Positions 28,894-50,258 are shown, counted from the first letter of the stretch. The stretch: 64,000 nucleotides of DNA from Dehalococcoides mccartyi 195 (GCF_000011905.1 NC_002936.3:868001-932000); one strand, 5' to 3'. Notes: generated by a model from the letters alone, not told the origin. Numbers and translations: made by a program.

Positions 28894-29475
28894 TTATTTG
28901 GTCTGGCGGTAAACATTGGCAAGCCGCTGGATAACAGTTATTAAACTAAGCACGCTTACCAGCACCAGCACCGGCACAAGTATGTTAAACATCATGCCAA
29001 TGGCCAGGGCAACCACCCGTTCAGGCCGGGTAAAAAACCCTTCCTTACCCTCAAGCCCCATAGCCTCAGCTCTGGCACGTATATAGCTGACCAGCAGGGA
29101 AAGAGTAAGGGTAACCACCGCCAGCACCACTGCGGGTGTCTGCCCGCTCTGAGAGTAAAAAGCACATACCCCGATAAGTATTGCCGCTTCCGAAACCCTG
29201 TCCAGAGTGGAATCCAGCACCGCTCCGAAGCGGGTAACCTTGCCGGTGCGTCTGGCCAGCGCCCCGTCCAGCATGTCAAATACACCTGCCAGCAGCATAA
29301 CAATCCCTGCAAGCAACAGATTTCCGTTCACTATAATCCCGGCGGCTACCAGGGTAACAATAAAACCGGTTACCGTAACCATATTGGGGGTAAGACCGGT
29401 TTTAGCTAAAAGGTTTATAATGGGATTGGTGACTTTTAGGGCTATTTCCTTACGTAAGTTTGCCATACCAGACAT
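28894..29475 (-). CDS. CDP-alcohol phosphatidyltransferase, phosphatidylinositol-phosphate synthase type
   Basis: 193 residues with about five to six membrane segments. The CDP-alcohol motif DxxDGxxAR...GxxxDxxxD is complete (FDMLDGALARR, FGAVLDSTLDR, residues 66-93). The later FTRPERVVALAIG stretch is typical of the inositol-phosphate branch of the family (mycobacterial PgsA1, archaeal AIP synthase). With inositol-phosphate synthase and a PimA-like enzyme in the same operon, CDP-diacylglycerol plus inositol-phosphate is the likely reaction. Weak ribosome site. Confidence 0.82.
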   Translation of the reverse strand: MSGMANLRKEIALKVTNPIINLLAKTGLTPNMVTVTGFIVTLVAAGIIVNGNLLLAGIVMLLAGVFDMLDGALARRTGKVTRFGAVLDSTLDRVSEAAILIGVCAFYSQSGQTPAVVLAVVTLTLSLLVSYIRARAEAMGLEGKEGFFTRPERVVALAIGMMFNILVPVLVLVSVLSLITVIQRLANVYRQTK

Positions 29476-29520
29476 GATATTCAGACTCTTTTCTGCCCTG
29501 AGTTAAAGGCAACAGCCAGG

Positions 29521-30669
29521 CTATTTACCTTCGGGACCATGGTGATTTTTGCTTAACACCAAATGGTAGTACTCTTCAACTTTTTTAGCAACTCTTTTCC
29601 AACTGTACTGCTGAACCGTTTTTAGTCCACCGGCGCTGAGTTCAGAACGCAAATCAGGCTGGGCAATCAGTTTCAAAAGAGCTTCTGCCAGTTTATCAGA
29701 GTTTTTGGGCGGTACTAACAGACCTTCTTTATTATCCGTCAGTACACACTGGTATCCCTCTATTTGTGAAGCCACAATCGGCACACCCAAAGCCATAGCT
29801 TCCAGAAGTACAATGCCGAAACTTTCCTGACCGGTAGCCGGGGAGCAGTAAATATGGGCTGTCTTGTAATACCGCGGCAGCTCATTACAGGCAACCCCGC
29901 CGGTAAAAACCACATCTGAAAGCCCATGCCGTTTTACCTTGCTGCGATAATGGCTCATTTGCCTGGGAGTACCCGGCCCCACTACCAGAAGCCTGGTCTG
30001 GGGGCACAGGGGCTTAATCTGGGCGTATGCATCAATCAGATAGTCCAAACCCTTTCGGCTCTCCATACGCCCCACAAAAAGGATATTCAGCTTGTCATCC
30101 AGATACTCCGGCACAGGCTGAACTTCGGTATTAAATAAATCCAGGTCTATACCGTTGGGCACAATAGTATAGTCACCGGGGATATATTTGGAGGCAAAAC
30201 GCAGAGCCGCTTTGGAAACCGCCATATGCCCGTGAAGATTACGCCTGCGCCTTCTCAGGAATATGCGGGTAAAAGGCCAGCCCAAATTATAACCGGGCTT
30301 GCCCTGACTGGCGTGGAAAGTAGCTACATTGCAGGTTTTGGAAAACCGGAGCATGGCACTGCACAGCATTATCATAAAAGGCTCATGCAGGTGGATAACG
30401 TCAAACTTTTCGGTTTCCAAAACCTGTTTAATACGGTTTTTAAGATTGACCGAAAGGCTGATGCGAACCACTGTGCCGGAGATAGCCAGAGGGCGGGGCT
30501 TGCCCATCCTGATAAAATCAGTACCGTATTCTGCCGGAGACTTTGATGCTGGAGCAATAATGCGAACATCATGCCCCAGCATCTTAAGTTCTTTATAAAG
30601 CGAGCTAACGTGGTTAACTACGCCACCCGGATAGGCAAAATCATAAGGACAGACTAAAACTATCTTCAC
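29521..30669 (-). CDS. GT4 glycosyltransferase, PimA-like
   Basis: 382 residues, GT-B fold. N-terminal IVLVCPYDFAYPGGVVNHVSS, NGIDLDLF in the linker, FVGRMESRKGLDYLIDA, and the donor-site ESFGIVLLEAMALGVPIVAS. The opening CPYDxxxPGGV is characteristic of PimA, the mannosyltransferase acting on phosphatidylinositol. It sits between the inositol-phosphate synthase and the CDP-alcohol transferase, which supports a glycosyl-phosphatidylinositol lipid product at the inner membrane face. Donor sugar not proven. Confidence 0.82.
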   Translation of the reverse strand: MKIVLVCPYDFAYPGGVVNHVSSLYKELKMLGHDVRIIAPASKSPAEYGTDFIRMGKPRPLAISGTVVRISLSVNLKNRIKQVLETEKFDVIHLHEPFMIMLCSAMLRFSKTCNVATFHASQGKPGYNLGWPFTRIFLRRRRRNLHGHMAVSKAALRFASKYIPGDYTIVPNGIDLDLFNTEVQPVPEYLDDKLNILFVGRMESRKGLDYLIDAYAQIKPLCPQTRLLVVGPGTPRQMSHYRSKVKRHGLSDVVFTGGVACNELPRYYKTAHIYCSPATGQESFGIVLLEAMALGVPIVASQIEGYQCVLTDNKEGLLVPPKNSDKLAEALLKLIAQPDLRSELSAGGLKTVQQYSWKRVAKKVEEYYHLVLSKNHHGPEGK

Positions 30670-30712
30670 TGTTAACCGCCACTAACCTATAGTGCTACTA
30701 AGGAAGTCCGGG

Positions 30713-31825
30713 TTATTTTTCTGCCTTTTTTTCAGCCTCGGCCATTTTTTTAGCAGAGGTCTTCTTTATAAACTCAGCCGTCATAGCGTGAGCAGCATCG
30801 TCAGTATACTGAACGGGAGGTGATTTCATAAAATATGAAGAAGGTTCGTTCAGTGAACCTGACATACCGTTATCCATAGCTAATTTACAGCAGCGGATAG
30901 CATCAATGACTACACCGGCGGAGTTGGGGCTGTCCCAAACTTCCAGCTTCATCTCCAAATTCAAGGGGACATCACCGAAAGTCCGGCCTTCCATGCGGAT
31001 ATGGCAGAACTTGCGGTCTTCAAGCCACGGCACGTAGTCACTGGGGCCTACATGAACGCAATCAGGATCAAGCTTGTAATCAAGCTGGGAGGTAACTGCG
31101 TTGGTCTTGGAAATCTTCTTTGATTCCAAACGCTCACGTTCAAGCATATTCATAAAGTCAGTGTTGCCGCCGAAGTTCAGCTGATAAGTCTTCTCCAGCT
31201 TTACACCGCGGTCACAGAAGAGTCTGGTCAGTACGCGGTGGGTAATAGTAGCACCCACCTGTGACTTGATATCATCACCGATAATAGGTACACCGGCAGT
31301 GACAAAACGCTGCTGCCAATATTTTTCCCGGGCAATAAATACCGGTATGCAGTTAACCATACCGCAGCCGGCTTCCAAAATCTGCTCTACATACCACTTG
31401 GTGGCTTCTTCGGAACCCACCGGCAGATAGTTGATAACAACATCTGTTTTGGTCTCTTTGAGGATTTTTACAATGTCAGCGGTAGAGCCGGGAGCCTTCT
31501 GAATAATCTGGGAAAGATACTTTCCCAGACCGTCATGGGTCATGCCGCGCTCAACCTTAACACCGGTTGCCGGAACATCAGTAAACTTAAAAGTATTGTT
31601 GGGCTTGGTAAAAATAGCTTCACTAATATCTTTGCCGACTTTGTTCTTGTCTACATCAAAGGCAGCGGTGAAATTAATGTCGCTGATGTGATAACCGCCA
31701 AGATTTACATGCATAAGACCGGGAACGAACTCAGTATCCTTAGCTTTGCGGTAATAGTGAACACCCTGTACCAGGGACGAAGCACAGTTACCAACACCGA
31801 TAATGGCAACATTGATTTTACCCAA
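30713..31825 (-). CDS. ino1: myo-Inositol-1-phosphate synthase
   Basis: 370 residues from a TTG start. NAD-binding [20 protein letters not shown] and [16 protein letters not shown], with GGNTDFMNM, match the short bacterial/archaeal form of Ino1. It converts glucose-6-phosphate to inositol-phosphate. The GGAAGGAG site is about 14 nt upstream, rather far. First gene of the operon with the PimA-like and CDP-alcohol enzymes; it could also feed the MshA-like enzyme at 46564. Confidence 0.93.
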
Positions 31826-45837: not shown

Positions 45838-46551
45838 TTACCACCACATATCCACCCGGTGAAATGACTCGGTTCTTATATACTTTTCGGCATCAGGGTA
45901 CATCTCAGCGTATGCGCTGATATCGCTCTTACCGCTTAAGGCCGAAATAACCTCGTCCATCCGGCCTCCGCCCTGGCTTTTATGGCAGGAAATGGATTTA
46001 AGTTTAAGTATGGCCGTCTGGCTTATATCAACCTCATAGTTAGGCTCCTGGGGGTTTGAAAGCAAAAGCTCACTCACTTTATGCGGCTCCAAACCTTCGG
46101 CAATAAGGTCAGGGTAAGCCAAATGGTCACGCGAATACGGGAAAATAGCGTCCATCACGGCTTCTCCGCACTGGCGGTGGTCTCTATGCCACCACATATA
46201 ACGCTGATACGGGTCTGTAGTAATAACCGTAAACGGTTTGAAAGTGCGTATCTGGCGTACCAGTTCTTTGCGCAGTTCAGGCGTATTTTCAAGCCCCTGG
46301 TCAGGTTTGCCCAGGAAAACTACCCTGCCAACCCCCAGTACGGCTGCCGCCTGACGCTGCTCTTCTTCACGTATCTTTATCAGCTCCGACGGTATCATAT
46401 TGCGGTCAGAAGTGCCTTTATCCCCATTGGTACAGACTACATAAGCCACTTTTTTACCTTCGGCGGTCATTTTGGCAATAGTACCGCCTGCCCCGAATTC
46501 GGCATCATCCGGATGAGGCATGATAACCAACACATCAGCTTTGAAAGACAT
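45838..46551 (-). CDS. LmbE/PIG-L family deacetylase (MshB/BshB-like)
   Basis: 237 residues. Zinc-site motif PHPDDAEFGAGGTIAKM near residue 12 and a later HRDHRQCGEAV, with CTNGDKG. Enzymes of this family remove acetyl from GlcNAc-inositol (MshB) or GlcNAc-malate (BshB). GGAGGGG precedes the ATG. Last of three genes with a MshA-like glycosyltransferase and a FemAB-like acyltransferase, which points to deacetylation of a GlcNAc-type conjugate. Substrate not proven. Confidence 0.85.
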   Translation of the reverse strand: MSFKADVLVIMPHPDDAEFGAGGTIAKMTAEGKKVAYVVCTNGDKGTSDRNMIPSELIKIREEEQRQAAAVLGVGRVVFLGKPDQGLENTPELRKELVRQIRTFKPFTVITTDPYQRYMWWHRDHRQCGEAVMDAIFPYSRDHLAYPDLIAEGLEPHKVSELLLSNPQEPNYEVDISQTAILKLKSISCHKSQGGGRMDEVISALSGKSDISAYAEMYPDAEKYIRTESFHRVDMWW

Positions 46552-46563
46552 AACCCCTCCGTT

Positions 46564-47781
46564 CTAAATAATCTCTGCTGTTTTGGCAGATAAAATAGCA
46601 TAATACACAGACTCTACCTGAGCCGATACAGATTGCCAGGCGTATTTACCGGCTATTTCCCTTATAGCTTTGCGGTCAATTTCTTTTTGATAAAGCCATT
46701 CCTTCATACAACCAGCCAGCTGTTCCGGCTGATTGCCGGGGGTAAGACAGCCATTTACGCCTGGGCAAATTATGTCAGGCGCAACCCCCACCCTGCCGCT
46801 AATCACCGGAGTGCCGCAGGCCATAGCTTCCAGGATAACCATGCCGAAACTCTCATAATAAGAGGGAACTACGCAAACTCTGGCGGCATTATAATAACCT
46901 GCCAGCATATCCTGCCTGACCGCCCCGTAAAATTTCACTTTATCCGAGATGCCAAGTTCTCCGGACAGAGCTTCCAGCCGGTTTCTTTCCCCCTGGCTGT
47001 ATTCGTCACCGCCCACCACCATAAGCTCCATATCACTATCAATCAGGGCAACCGCCCTCAGCAGATTATCCAGCCCCTTCAGCTTCTCCAGCCGCCCCAC
47101 AAATAATGCCTTAGGCACTTGGGAAAGCCCCAGGACTGCTTCAGATTCGGCGCGGTTGGCCAGAGAGAAAAGATTGGTATTTACCCCACAGGGAATTACC
47201 CGTATTTTATCCGCTGACGCCTGATACAAAGATATCAGGTCTTCTTTTTCATTTTGGGTAGAGGCTATTATCAGGTCGGTTTCCTGGACTATATTCTGCT
47301 CGGCATCCAAGCGGAGCTGAGGGTCAACCTGGGCCTGCATCAAACGGTTTTTAACCTTCCCCAGAGTGTGAAACATAACCAGATGGGGTACATTCCAGTG
47401 CTTACTTAAAACCAGCCCGGCTCTGGCAGACAGCCAGTAATGGCTGTGGATAAGGTCATATGTAATACCCTCGTGTTTACGGAATTTTTCCAGCCCGCAG
47501 ACAAAGCTCTCCAGATGCTCATACTGGGCCAGCTTGCCCATATCCTCTACCGGCCCGGCCTGAATATGAATAAGCCGCACGTTCGGGGCTAAAAATTCCC
47601 AGACGTCATCACGGGGGTCATGGGCGCGGGTATAAATATCAACCTGGTGCCCTAAACGGCCTAAAGTCCGGGCCAGTTCGCAGATATACACATTCATACC
47701 GCCGGTATCCCGTCCGCCGGGCTGCCCCAGAGGACAGCTGTGCAAGCTGATAAGTGCAATACGTAATTTTTTTCTGGCCAA
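46564..47781 (-). CDS. GT4 glycosyltransferase, MshA-like
   Basis: 405 residues from TTG 47781 with an AGGT site. GT-B fold with DTGGMNVYICELARTLG near residue 25, YDLIHSHYWLSARAG, FHTLGKVKN, FVGRLEKLKGLDNLL and donor motif ESFGMVILEAMACGTPVI. The GGMNVY and HSHYWLS pattern is that of MshA (UDP-GlcNAc:inositol-phosphate) and of sucrose-phosphate synthases. A deacetylase 12 nt downstream favours a MshA-like role. Acceptor unknown; inositol-phosphate, malate or another acid are options. Confidence 0.85.
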   Translation of the reverse strand: MARKKLRIALISLHSCPLGQPGGRDTGGMNVYICELARTLGRLGHQVDIYTRAHDPRDDVWEFLAPNVRLIHIQAGPVEDMGKLAQYEHLESFVCGLEKFRKHEGITYDLIHSHYWLSARAGLVLSKHWNVPHLVMFHTLGKVKNRLMQAQVDPQLRLDAEQNIVQETDLIIASTQNEKEDLISLYQASADKIRVIPCGVNTNLFSLANRAESEAVLGLSQVPKALFVGRLEKLKGLDNLLRAVALIDSDMELMVVGGDEYSQGERNRLEALSGELGISDKVKFYGAVRQDMLAGYYNAARVCVVPSYYESFGMVILEAMACGTPVISGRVGVAPDIICPGVNGCLTPGNQPEQLAGCMKEWLYQKEIDRKAIREIAGKYAWQSVSAQVESVYYAILSAKTAEII

Positions 47782-47784
47782 AGT

Positions 47785-48762
47785 TTATACCTGACTATCC
47801 AGAGTTATGCAGCAGCGGTAAACCGGCTGGGATTTCCCGCCCAGATGAAATTTATATTTTTCCTCTCCGCGCAGAAAATCAAAGGCATCATAGCCTTTTT
47901 CAATAGAATCCTTAATAGCCAGCATTTTGGAAAGCACGCCCACACTAAGGTGGGAATACTCCGGATTGTAGCCGCTGTTATACAAGTATCTTATATTATT
48001 ATAATCAAAGCAAAACAGACTTGCCAAAACAGTCTCCCCGGTTTTGAGAAAAACAAGACGCAGATAGCCCTGACTGCCAAGCCAGTCTGCCAGCTGCTTA
48101 AAATAGCAGCGCATTTCCGGATTAAGGAAAATTGCTTTCTCAAGGTGGCTGAGCTCCATCTGGTCAAGCAAAATATCTATATCACCAGGGCTGGTCACTA
48201 CTTCCAGCCGGGGTGTCAGAGTTTCCTCAAGACGGCGTAATTTGCGTTTAAGTTCGTGGCGCTGGTGCTTTTCCAGCCCTGCCAGGTATTTTTCAAAGTC
48301 AGCCGGCAGCTCAAGCAGCGGAGAAACGTCTGCCTGTTCGCAAACTACCAAAATACCTTTTTCTTTCGCCAGCGGCAGCAGAACGTCATAAGCCTGGGAA
48401 CGGGCTGTAAGCCCCTCCAGTTCCAGCACCTCAACCTGGTTTTGCTTCAAAAGCTTAAGCAGCAGCTCAAAATATCCGGCCTGATGGCCGGGTTTTACCG
48501 CAAAATCCAGATAATCAAAAACATTTCCGTCAGCTATAAAACGGGCAACCCCGCTGTCTATCCGCAAGGCTATAAGCCCCACCGTCTCAGACCCCAAAGT
48601 CACCAGCCCGCAAACTTGCCTGCCGGGCGGAGAAAAACACTTCTGCCAGACAGACTGCCAGCCGGGGTGCAAAAAGGGATAAACAAAATTAAGCCCGTTT
48701 TGGCCGGAGGCAAAATCAGAGCTTAATTCCTCAAGGCTGAGTTCCTTAAAAACATATACCAT
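47785..48762 (-). CDS. FemAB/BioF2-like GNAT acyltransferase
   Basis: 325 residues, a double-GNAT protein. The second half has the BioF2-like LFCFDYNNIRYLYNSGYNPE and YDAFDFLRGEEKYKFHLGG. Relatives join amino acids (from aminoacyl-tRNA) or acyl groups to amines. It heads the operon and overlaps neither partner (3-nt gap). In mycothiol or bacillithiol pathways a cysteine ligase would act at this point. Promoter spacing implies a leaderless mRNA. Donor unknown. Confidence 0.78.
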   Translation of the reverse strand: MVYVFKELSLEELSSDFASGQNGLNFVYPFLHPGWQSVWQKCFSPPGRQVCGLVTLGSETVGLIALRIDSGVARFIADGNVFDYLDFAVKPGHQAGYFELLLKLLKQNQVEVLELEGLTARSQAYDVLLPLAKEKGILVVCEQADVSPLLELPADFEKYLAGLEKHQRHELKRKLRRLEETLTPRLEVVTSPGDIDILLDQMELSHLEKAIFLNPEMRCYFKQLADWLGSQGYLRLVFLKTGETVLASLFCFDYNNIRYLYNSGYNPEYSHLSVGVLSKMLAIKDSIEKGYDAFDFLRGEEKYKFHLGGKSQPVYRCCITLDSQV

Positions 48763-48824: not shown

Positions 48825-48879
48825 TTGACAGCCCTGCCGAATAGTTTTAATATATTCTTATATGCTAATATACGCATAT
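48825..48879 (+). promoter_or_regulatory. arsR promoter and operator
   Basis: TTGACA (48825-48830), 17-bp spacer, TAATAT (48848-48853). The inverted repeat ATATGC-N8-GCATAT (48860-48879) covers the expected transcription start, a classic ArsR/SmtB operator for autorepression. Confidence 0.75.
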
Positions 48880-48888
48880 GGGGGTTTT

Positions 48889-49227
48889 ATGGAAAAATAT
48901 GCATCCATTTTTAAAGCGCTGGCAGATGAATACCGTCTGCGGATACTGAGTTTACTTTTCAAACAGGAATGCTGTGTCTGTGAAATCCAGCAGGCACTGG
49001 GCATAAGCCAGACTTCTGCTTCCCGTCACCTGCAAAACCTGCATCAGGCCGGGCTGATAAAACTCCGCCGTGATGGTTTATGGGCACTGTATTCGGTAAA
49101 CTGGGCTGAATTTGCACCTGACCTTAAAAAGGTCATGCAGAGCGTATCAGCCATGCTGGAACAAAACCCGCAGGCAGACACAGATTTCGGGCAGCTAAAA
49201 TCCAGCTGCAGACGAAGCAACGGCTAA
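48889..49227 (+). CDS. arsR: ArsR-family metal(loid)-sensing repressor
   Basis: 112 residues from ATG 48889. Winged helix with CEIQQALGISQTSASRHLQN; the alpha-3 sensor site reads ECCVCEIQ (C28, C29, C31), the CxC type of arsenic/antimony sensors. Release of the metalloid-bound repressor would open the permease/thioredoxin-like operon. Stop overlaps the permease start (TAATG). Confidence 0.9.
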   Translation: MEKYASIFKALADEYRLRILSLLFKQECCVCEIQQALGISQTSASRHLQNLHQAGLIKLRRDGLWALYSVNWAEFAPDLKKVMQSVSAMLEQNPQADTDFGQLKSSCRRSNG

Positions 49228-50258
49228 TGGACTTTATCCTGAGTTTGCTGGCGGGCGGCTTTTCCGCCCTGCTGGAATACCTTTCCGCCCACGTGATAGC
49301 CTGTCTGGTTCCGGCATTTTTTATTGCCGGGGCTATTTCGGTTTTCCTTGACCCGTACATAGTCACCAAATATTTCGGCAGTAAAGTAAACCCGTTTGTC
49401 TCATACAGCATTGCCTCTATTTCAGGGTTTATACTGGCCGTATGCTCCTGCACTGTTTTGCCGCTTTTTGCCGGTATTTACAAACGCGGCGGAGGTATCG
49501 GCCCGGCAGTCACCTTTCTTTATTCCGGCCCGGCCATAAGTATTCTGGCTGTCTCACTGTCTGCCGGGGTACTTGGCTACGATATCGGTATTGCCAGAGC
49601 TATCTTTGCCATCATATTTTCTATACTAATCGGGCTTATTATGGCCTACCTGTTCCGCAAAGATAAGCCGGATACCGCCCAGCAGATAACCAGCCTGCCC
49701 GCAGATACGGCCGCCAAACGCCCCCTATACCAGACCTTGATTTATTTCGGCAGTCTGATTGCCATACTTATATTCGCATCCGCCAAAAATATACCCGTAT
49801 TCCTGCTGGCACTTTTAGTATTGCTCTTCTGCCTGTGGCGGTTTTTCAATATGTCTCAGATAAAAGAATGGCTTTCCGAAACATGGCGTTTTGTGAAGCT
49901 TATTTTCCCGTGGCTGGTAGGCGGCATTTTTATAGCCGGGGTTTTAAAAACCCTGATTCCGGCTGATTTTATCACCAGCTACGTGGGCAGCAATAACCCT
50001 GTTTCAAACCTTATAGCCTCGCTTTCGGGGGCGTTACTCTATTTTGCCACCCTGACCGAAGTCCCTATAGTCAAGGCATTTGTTGATTTAGGTATGGCCA
50101 AAGGCCCGGCACTGGCTCTGCTGCTGGCAGGACCGGCTGTTTCTTTACCCGGTTTCCTGGTTATCCGCAAAATACTGGGTAACCGCAAAGCCCTCACTTA
50201 TATAGGGCTGGTAATCATTAGTTCAAGTTTAGCCGGGTTTATATTCGGCATATTCTAA
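49227..50258 (+). CDS. DUF318/ArsP-type permease
   Basis: 343 residues with about eight membrane segments. VCSCTVLPLFAGIYKRGGG is the conserved cysteine motif of the ArsP/SO_0444 permease family, repeated in weaker form near TLTEVPIVKAFVDLGMAKGP. Family members export organoarsenicals or handle metals. Between an ArsR repressor and a small thioredoxin-like protein, arsenical efflux is the best inference. Confidence 0.87.
   Translation: MDFILSLLAGGFSALLEYLSAHVIACLVPAFFIAGAISVFLDPYIVTKYFGSKVNPFVSYSIASISGFILAVCSCTVLPLFAGIYKRGGGIGPAVTFLYSGPAISILAVSLSAGVLGYDIGIARAIFAIIFSILIGLIMAYLFRKDKPDTAQQITSLPADTAAKRPLYQTLIYFGSLIAILIFASAKNIPVFLLALLVLLFCLWRFFNMSQIKEWLSETWRFVKLIFPWLVGGIFIAGVLKTLIPADFITSYVGSNNPVSNLIASLSGALLYFATLTEVPIVKAFVDLGMAKGPALALLLAGPAVSLPGFLVIRKILGNRKALTYIGLVIISSSLAGFIFGIF

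Follow-up and report, generated by a model that had tools for sequence, protein, structure and literature searches.

Here we describe a three-gene operon in a 64,000-nt stretch of the Dehalococcoides mccartyi 195 genome (NC_002936.3:868001-932000), hereafter the window, within which all positions are counted; the genome itself is a single contig of 1,469,720 bases (G000 in our genome set). The open reading frames are co-directional on the minus strand and separated by intergenic gaps of 3 and 12 nt. The first gene (47785-48762, ATG start) encodes a 325-residue double-GNAT, FemAB-like protein, which we call FEM; the second (46564-47781, TTG start) encodes a 405-residue MshA-like glycosyltransferase of family GT4, which we call GT; and the third (45838-46551, ATG start) encodes a 237-residue PIG-L/LmbE zinc deacetylase that matches PF02585, which we call PIG-L. 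The initial annotation had described three tightly spaced minus-strand genes at the same coordinates and the motifs DTGGMNVY, HSHYWLS, FHTLGKVKN and PHPDDAEFG, all of which we recover. It had further read the MshA-like, deacetylase and FemAB-like proteins as one coherent pathway, and the ligase absence and complementarity set out below lend support to this idea. On balance, we lean towards an operon that makes a mycothiol-type low-molecular-weight thiol with FEM carrying out the cysteine step, a judgement made on the chain as a whole because its steps support one another.

A genome search for the cysteine ligases MshC and BshC, which the initial annotation had suggested, finds neither in D. 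mccartyi 195: PF10079 (BshC) has no match, and the MshC model matches only the canonical cysteinyl-tRNA synthetase (CysRS; 319 bits, cutoff 485), which has 194 residues after the KMSKS motif and thus a full-length C-terminal region. A hidden MshC open reading frame was considered and rejected, the canonical CysRS being the only match. The strongest new evidence comes from the wider class, Dehalococcoidia, represented by a set of 148 genomes, where FEM and MshC-type ligases are complementary. With a GT score of 350 bits or more as the threshold, 109 genomes are GT-positive; FEM is present in 92 of these and missing from 17. Sixteen of the 17 FEM-less genomes carry, elsewhere, a second, short CysRS paralog of the MshC type (Fisher p 3e-11, a value that overstates independence because the FEM-less genomes come from about six families), and the only one without such a ligase, G057, is 63% complete. 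No short paralog of this type was found in the 35 genomes without GT. Because score alone cannot separate MshC-type paralogs from CysRS, we relied on length, signature and phylogeny. The short paralogs end about 120-140 residues after KMSKS, against about 190 or more in canonical enzymes; they carry signatures such as GITPYDVGHLGHA or GVTPYDTTHLGHA, which resemble that of MshC (GITPYDATHLGHA); and in a maximum-likelihood tree they split from canonical CysRS together with Mycobacterium smegmatis MshC (3c8z), with support of 100/99; the MshC branch is long. Two further paralogs that are short by length (L177 and L172, the latter truncated by the end of its contig) group with canonical CysRS in the tree, and we left them out of the MshC-type count. 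Many FEM-less genomes retain the same neighbourhood of threonine synthase (thrC), folE, GT and PIG-L with FEM alone missing, which, together with the complementarity, is the pattern expected from one ligase replacing another.

It is because of this complementarity that we prefer cysteine over other amino acids as the moiety moved by FEM, and cysteine is probably what it transfers. A tRNA-dependent FEM that moves Gly, Ala, Ser or Leu instead, yielding a non-thiol aminoacyl-glucosaminyl-inositol, would fit the known enzymes FemX, Orf11, VlmA and DhpH, whose donors are tRNAs for Gly, Ala, Ser or Leu and in no case for Cys (PMC12945691), and the FEM sequence does not itself tell the amino acid. 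We nonetheless find this alternative unlikely, as the ligase that stands in for FEM in FEM-less relatives is CysRS-derived, and MshD-like and DinB_2 genes co-occur with the operon.

The operon itself is conserved well beyond D. mccartyi. FEM is encoded in 102 of the 148 class genomes. We compared 40 loci from the class, each about 20 kb long: in 37 of them GT is the next gene downstream of FEM, and 30 keep the full order FEM, GT, PIG-L; because the three genes recur in one order, the arrangement is not chance. Likewise, GT adjoins FEM in 73 of the 77 loci with room for it, out of 80 named loci fetched independently. The three-gene order is conserved across Dehalococcoidia, SAR202 included. A scan of a genome collection with a six-sequence FEM alignment returned named relatives exclusively from Chloroflexota, with Dehalococcoidia and SAR202 making up many of them, and a search of viral contigs for FEM relatives returned none. 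FEM relatives do occur outside the class, where they often stand alone; the tight link between FEM, GT and PIG-L is therefore mainly a feature of the class. Two such outside relatives (L133, 9431-10435; L147, 9695-10711) come right after a peptide deformylase-like gene, which they overlap, and have neither GT nor PIG-L nearby. A Dehalococcoidales chromosome (CP070645.1) carries two FEM-GT copies (L274 and L281), one with an MshD-like gene and one without.

FEM has a single Pfam match, PF13480 (Acetyltransf_6; E 5e-30, 105 bits vs a gathering score of 22). It does not match PF02388 (FemAB), nor does any other protein of this genome, and a sequence search against the PDB gave no meaningful matches. 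Comparison with FemX at the level of structure, another suggestion of the initial annotation, proved informative. An AlphaFold2 model of FEM built from 34 relatives (pLDDT 95.4) lies nearest to Staphylococcus aureus FemX (VIA-align Z 20.8, root-mean-square deviation (rmsd) 4.3, 293 residues), tied with Sbb17 (Z 20.5) and Sba18 (Z 20.2; rmsd 3.4-3.5 for both). The latter two are aminoacyl-tRNA-dependent peptide synthases, with Sba18 and one Sbb17 entry solved in the presence of streptothrisamine. Acetyl-CoA GNATs, MshD among them, reach Z 13-15. Two conserved elements of FEM further recall the FemX mechanism. Tyr303-Lys304 (47851-47856, minus strand), invariant in the 34 relatives, maps indirectly onto S. 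aureus FemX (6snr): profile alignment pairs it with FK in a FemAB homologue, which in turn aligns with FK in FemX, and this F/Y-K motif is the site of the catalytic Lys305 in Weissella FemX (PMC4964394, PMC12945691). Furthermore, a strongly basic helix (residues 165-181, EKHQRHELKRKLRRLEE; 48220-48270, minus strand), in which E170, R173 and K174 are invariant, is a candidate tRNA-acceptor-stem helix, as the published tRNA helix of FemX suggests (PMC12945691). Orf11 of the BD-12 pathway offers a precedent for an amino-sugar acceptor, as it glycylates the intermediate streptothrisamine from Gly-tRNA (PMC12945691). We are fairly confident that FEM transfers an amino acid to an amine, and a tRNA, rather than another activated form, is its likely donor.

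The same comparison bears on whether FEM could be an acyl-CoA-dependent N-acyltransferase, with the operon producing an acylated glucosaminyl-inositol or a glycosylphosphatidylinositol-like glycolipid. PF13480 groups acyltransferase-like proteins in general, N-acetylglucosaminyl-phosphatidylinositol is another substrate of PIG-L enzymes, and the genome has a separate operon for inositol lipids, comprising an inositol-3-phosphate synthase (Ino1), a phosphatidylinositol-phosphate-synthase-like gene and a GT4. However, the FEM fold is nearer to aminoacyl-tRNA transferases (Z 20) than to acyl-CoA GNATs, the FemX-type lysine is conserved, lipid or export genes are not consistently linked to the triad, and FEM is complementary with an MshC-type ligase, all of which makes acyl-CoA dependence quite unlikely.

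For GT, the best NCBIfam model is MshA (TIGR03449) at 349.4 bits, with the next family at 130 bits; sucrose phosphate synthase (SPS) models score 116 bits and BshA (TIGR03999) 80 bits (cutoff 273.7). We do not file GT as MshA because its score falls below the MshA equivalog cutoff of 462.5. When the GT family profile is compared with solved structures, Corynebacterium glutamicum MshA ranks first (414 bits) and Tll1590, a GT4 presumably close to the sucrose phosphate synthases, ranks second (383 bits). What we take to be the inositol-phosphate ligands of C. glutamicum MshA (K78, Y110, T134 and R154) are kept in GT as K83, Y115, T139 and R157, the first in 23 of 27 relatives and the other three in all 27. 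At the positions of K83 and T139, Tll1590 carries R and S, and both proteins have Y, H and R in the pocket. GT very likely converts UDP-N-acetylglucosamine (UDP-GlcNAc) and inositol-3-phosphate to GlcNAc-inositol-phosphate. A reading of GT as an SPS-like enzyme or another GT4 whose substrate is a different sugar phosphate or a surface glycan, with the operon decorating a glycan, draws on the near-equal closeness of Tll1590 and MshA to the GT profile, on the Y, H and R that Tll1590 shares, and on the nearest solved PIG-L relatives, which are diacetylchitobiose deacetylases. We regard this as very unlikely, since the curated models separate clearly (MshA 349 vs SPS 116 bits), K83 and T139 are MshA-like where Tll1590 differs, polymerase, flippase and export genes are not consistently near the operon, and FEM-less relatives carry an MshC-type ligase.

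The deacetylase retains its HPDD and HRDHR zinc motifs, which vary little or not at all among 22 relatives. The initial annotation had called it MshB/BshB-like, and it is not specifically MshB-like: its best NCBIfam model is BshB1 (TIGR04001; 109 bits, cutoff 182.5), and MshB (TIGR03445) reaches 37 bits against a cutoff of 224. Its family position does not separate inositol from malate, and we assign it with high confidence the MshB-equivalent role of deacetylating the GlcNAc product. A bacillithiol-like variant in which malate rather than inositol is the acceptor would agree with the BshB1 score, but is highly improbable given that GT reaches no more than 80 bits with BshA, compared with 349 with MshA, and keeps the inositol-phosphate ligands, that D. 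mccartyi 195 has no BshC, and that the ligase replacing FEM in relatives is of the MshC type. Tandem PIG-L genes were considered as possible Mca, a question that the curated models did not resolve. A second PIG-L of D. mccartyi 195 (L002, G000:C1, around 209526-209876) has an N-terminal hydrophobic segment and adjoins a flippase-like gene; it is probably a cell-surface glycan deacetylase.

An inositol-phosphate synthase, which the initial annotation had placed at 30713 in the window and cited in support of the pathway, is indeed found at 30713-31825 (PF01658 over its cutoff; NCBIfam mycothiol_INO1 536 bits vs 638), but its weight as support is small. It belongs to an operon of its own (28894-31825, minus strand), with a GT4 that is PimA-like by eye and a phosphatidylinositol-phosphate-synthase-like CDP-alcohol transferase, which suggests inositol phospholipids in D. 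mccartyi 195. Ino1 is also near-universal in the class (142 of 148 genomes) and was discarded as a co-occurrence signal. For the pathway it shows that the substrate inositol-3-phosphate is available, and nothing more. Directly upstream of the FEM operon, and divergent from it, lie genes for an ArsR-family regulator and an ArsP_1 permease (48862-50258, plus strand), a pair that is kept in two relatives of the same genus and was seen in no other family.

Several genes linked to thiol metabolism accompany the operon in its relatives. Many have a tandem GNAT gene on the opposite strand between GT and PIG-L, for which MshD is the top-scoring curated family (98-111 bits, cutoff 163); it adjoins the operon in 25 of the 80 named loci, and the best sub-cutoff MshD (TIGR03448) matches of the class are mostly beside FEM. 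A model of this protein (pLDDT 94) fits MAB_4324 best; MshD bound to des-acetyl-mycothiol comes next (22% identity), level with a GNAT from Sphaerobacter, so that the predicted fold is consistent with MshD and not decisive. In two genomes (G085 and G051; L078 and L079), an MshD over the curated cutoff lies beside peroxiredoxin-like and OsmC-like genes, and a few loci (L042, L043, L044, L052, L054 and L240) have, near the operon, a gene for a glyoxalase-II-like protein of the metallo-beta-lactamase fold that could act on thiol conjugates. The DinB_2 superfamily includes mycothiol and bacillithiol S-transferases, the latter documented in PMC5815605. Ignoring kinship, DinB_2 genes occur in 104 of 119 pathway-positive against 7 of 29 negative genomes, and, with kinship again ignored, in 38 of 50 against 4 of 23 when only genomes under 2 Mb are counted. 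One genome (G078; L075, 1-558 and 1444-2622) has a DinB_2 gene about 0.9 kb from its MshC-type ligase.

In the scheme that we infer, for substrates, tRNA donor, cysteine and phosphatase alike, GT would join GlcNAc from UDP-GlcNAc to inositol-3-phosphate, a phosphatase would strip the phosphate, and PIG-L would deacetylate the product to glucosaminyl-inositol (GlcN-Ins). FEM would then attach cysteine to the amine of the glucosamine, most probably by a FemX-type mechanism that draws on Cys-tRNA(Cys), to give Cys-GlcN-Ins (des-acetyl-mycothiol). Relatives with an MshD-like gene would N-acetylate this to mycothiol; Dehalococcoides, which has no such gene, would end with the amine left free, as it is in bacillithiol. 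Cys-GlcN-Ins is a known mycothiol intermediate, and the novelty therefore lies in the route, not the thiol. Thus, of the new thiol pathway with a FemAB-type third step put forward by the initial annotation, the FemAB-type protein in the place of MshC or BshC is supported and the new product is not.

Several observations weigh against this scheme. GT, PIG-L and the MshD-like proteins all score under their curated equivalog cutoffs, and the MshD-like model fits the tandem GNAT MAB_4324 (Z 33.3) better than it fits MshD (Z 28.9). PF13480 covers a broad range of proteins, and in many cases a FEM relative from outside the class has no GT nearby. D. mccartyi 195 has no DinB_2 gene and no MshD-like gene in its genome (no TIGR03448 match). 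FEM and the MshC-type ligase are not strictly exclusive, as 11 genomes scored for both (nine by reading, two deduced from paired full-length hits), and the FEM-less set spans about six families or lineages, with 9 of its 16 ligase-bearing genomes from one family. The phosphatase has no gene assigned to it, and Ino1, with its separate lipid operon and near-universal presence, counts as weak evidence. Taken together, we consider the operon a well-supported genomic prediction of mycothiol-type biosynthesis by a new route. The broader proposition, that in Chloroflexota (Dehalococcoidia, SAR202) a Cys-tRNA-dependent FemAB-type transferase is a non-orthologous replacement of MshC, we hold to be evenly balanced.

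If true, a tRNA-dependent step would for the first time be part of how a low-molecular-weight redox thiol is made, with the cysteine step on the same sugar-inositol scaffold taken over by an enzyme class that uses the tRNA pool of protein synthesis. It would provide a clean case of a gene replaced by an unrelated gene, and would link primary redox metabolism to the aminoacylation of amino sugars that is known from antibiotics. Mycothiol-type thiols would also extend to obligate anaerobic organohalide respirers and abundant deep-ocean bacteria, pointing to candidate enzymes where cells face oxygen, metals and reactive halogenated compounds. In a literature search that left most subscription journals outside its reach, we found no report of the mycothiol pathway in Dehalococcoides or SAR202; one SAR202 genome paper annotates a mycothiol-type maleylpyruvate isomerase (PMC6123686).

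Among known systems, the mycothiol pathway is the closest counterpart, sharing an MshA-like GT with an inositol-phosphate pocket, a PIG-L deacetylase and an inositol-3-phosphate synthase in the genome. Relatives share with it an MshD-like tandem GNAT too, and an MshC-type ligase where FEM is missing. The operon differs in that D. mccartyi 195 has neither MshC nor an MshD-like gene and has a FemAB-type protein in the operon, and in its host phylum, Chloroflexota, as complete mshA-D sets were confined to Actinobacteria in a survey from 2018 (PMC6282198). The operon is predicted to work like the mycothiol pathway and is not filed as a canonical member of it, with MshC and MshD absent and scores below the MshA and MshB cutoffs. 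Bacillithiol synthesis likewise combines a GT4, an LmbE deacetylase and a cysteine-adding step, and shares the predicted free-amine Cys-GlcN product, but our genome has no BshC and its GT is MshA-like, not BshA-like. For FEM itself, the FemABX peptidoglycan transferases share the fold, the basic helix in domain 2 and the F/Y-K catalytic motif, whereas FEM is outside PF02388 and linked to GT and PIG-L rather than to cell-wall genes. The streptothricin-type antibiotic synthases Orf11, Sbb17 and Sba18 are about 15% identical to FEM and belong to Streptomyces secondary metabolism, with Gly-tRNA as donor and no thiol link; they have in common with it a Fem-like fold of two GNAT domains (Z 20.1-20.5, rmsd 3.4-3.5), and Orf11 aminoacylates an amino-sugar intermediate (PMC12945691). 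By its modelled fold and active-site pattern, FEM is predicted to work like FemX and Orf11.

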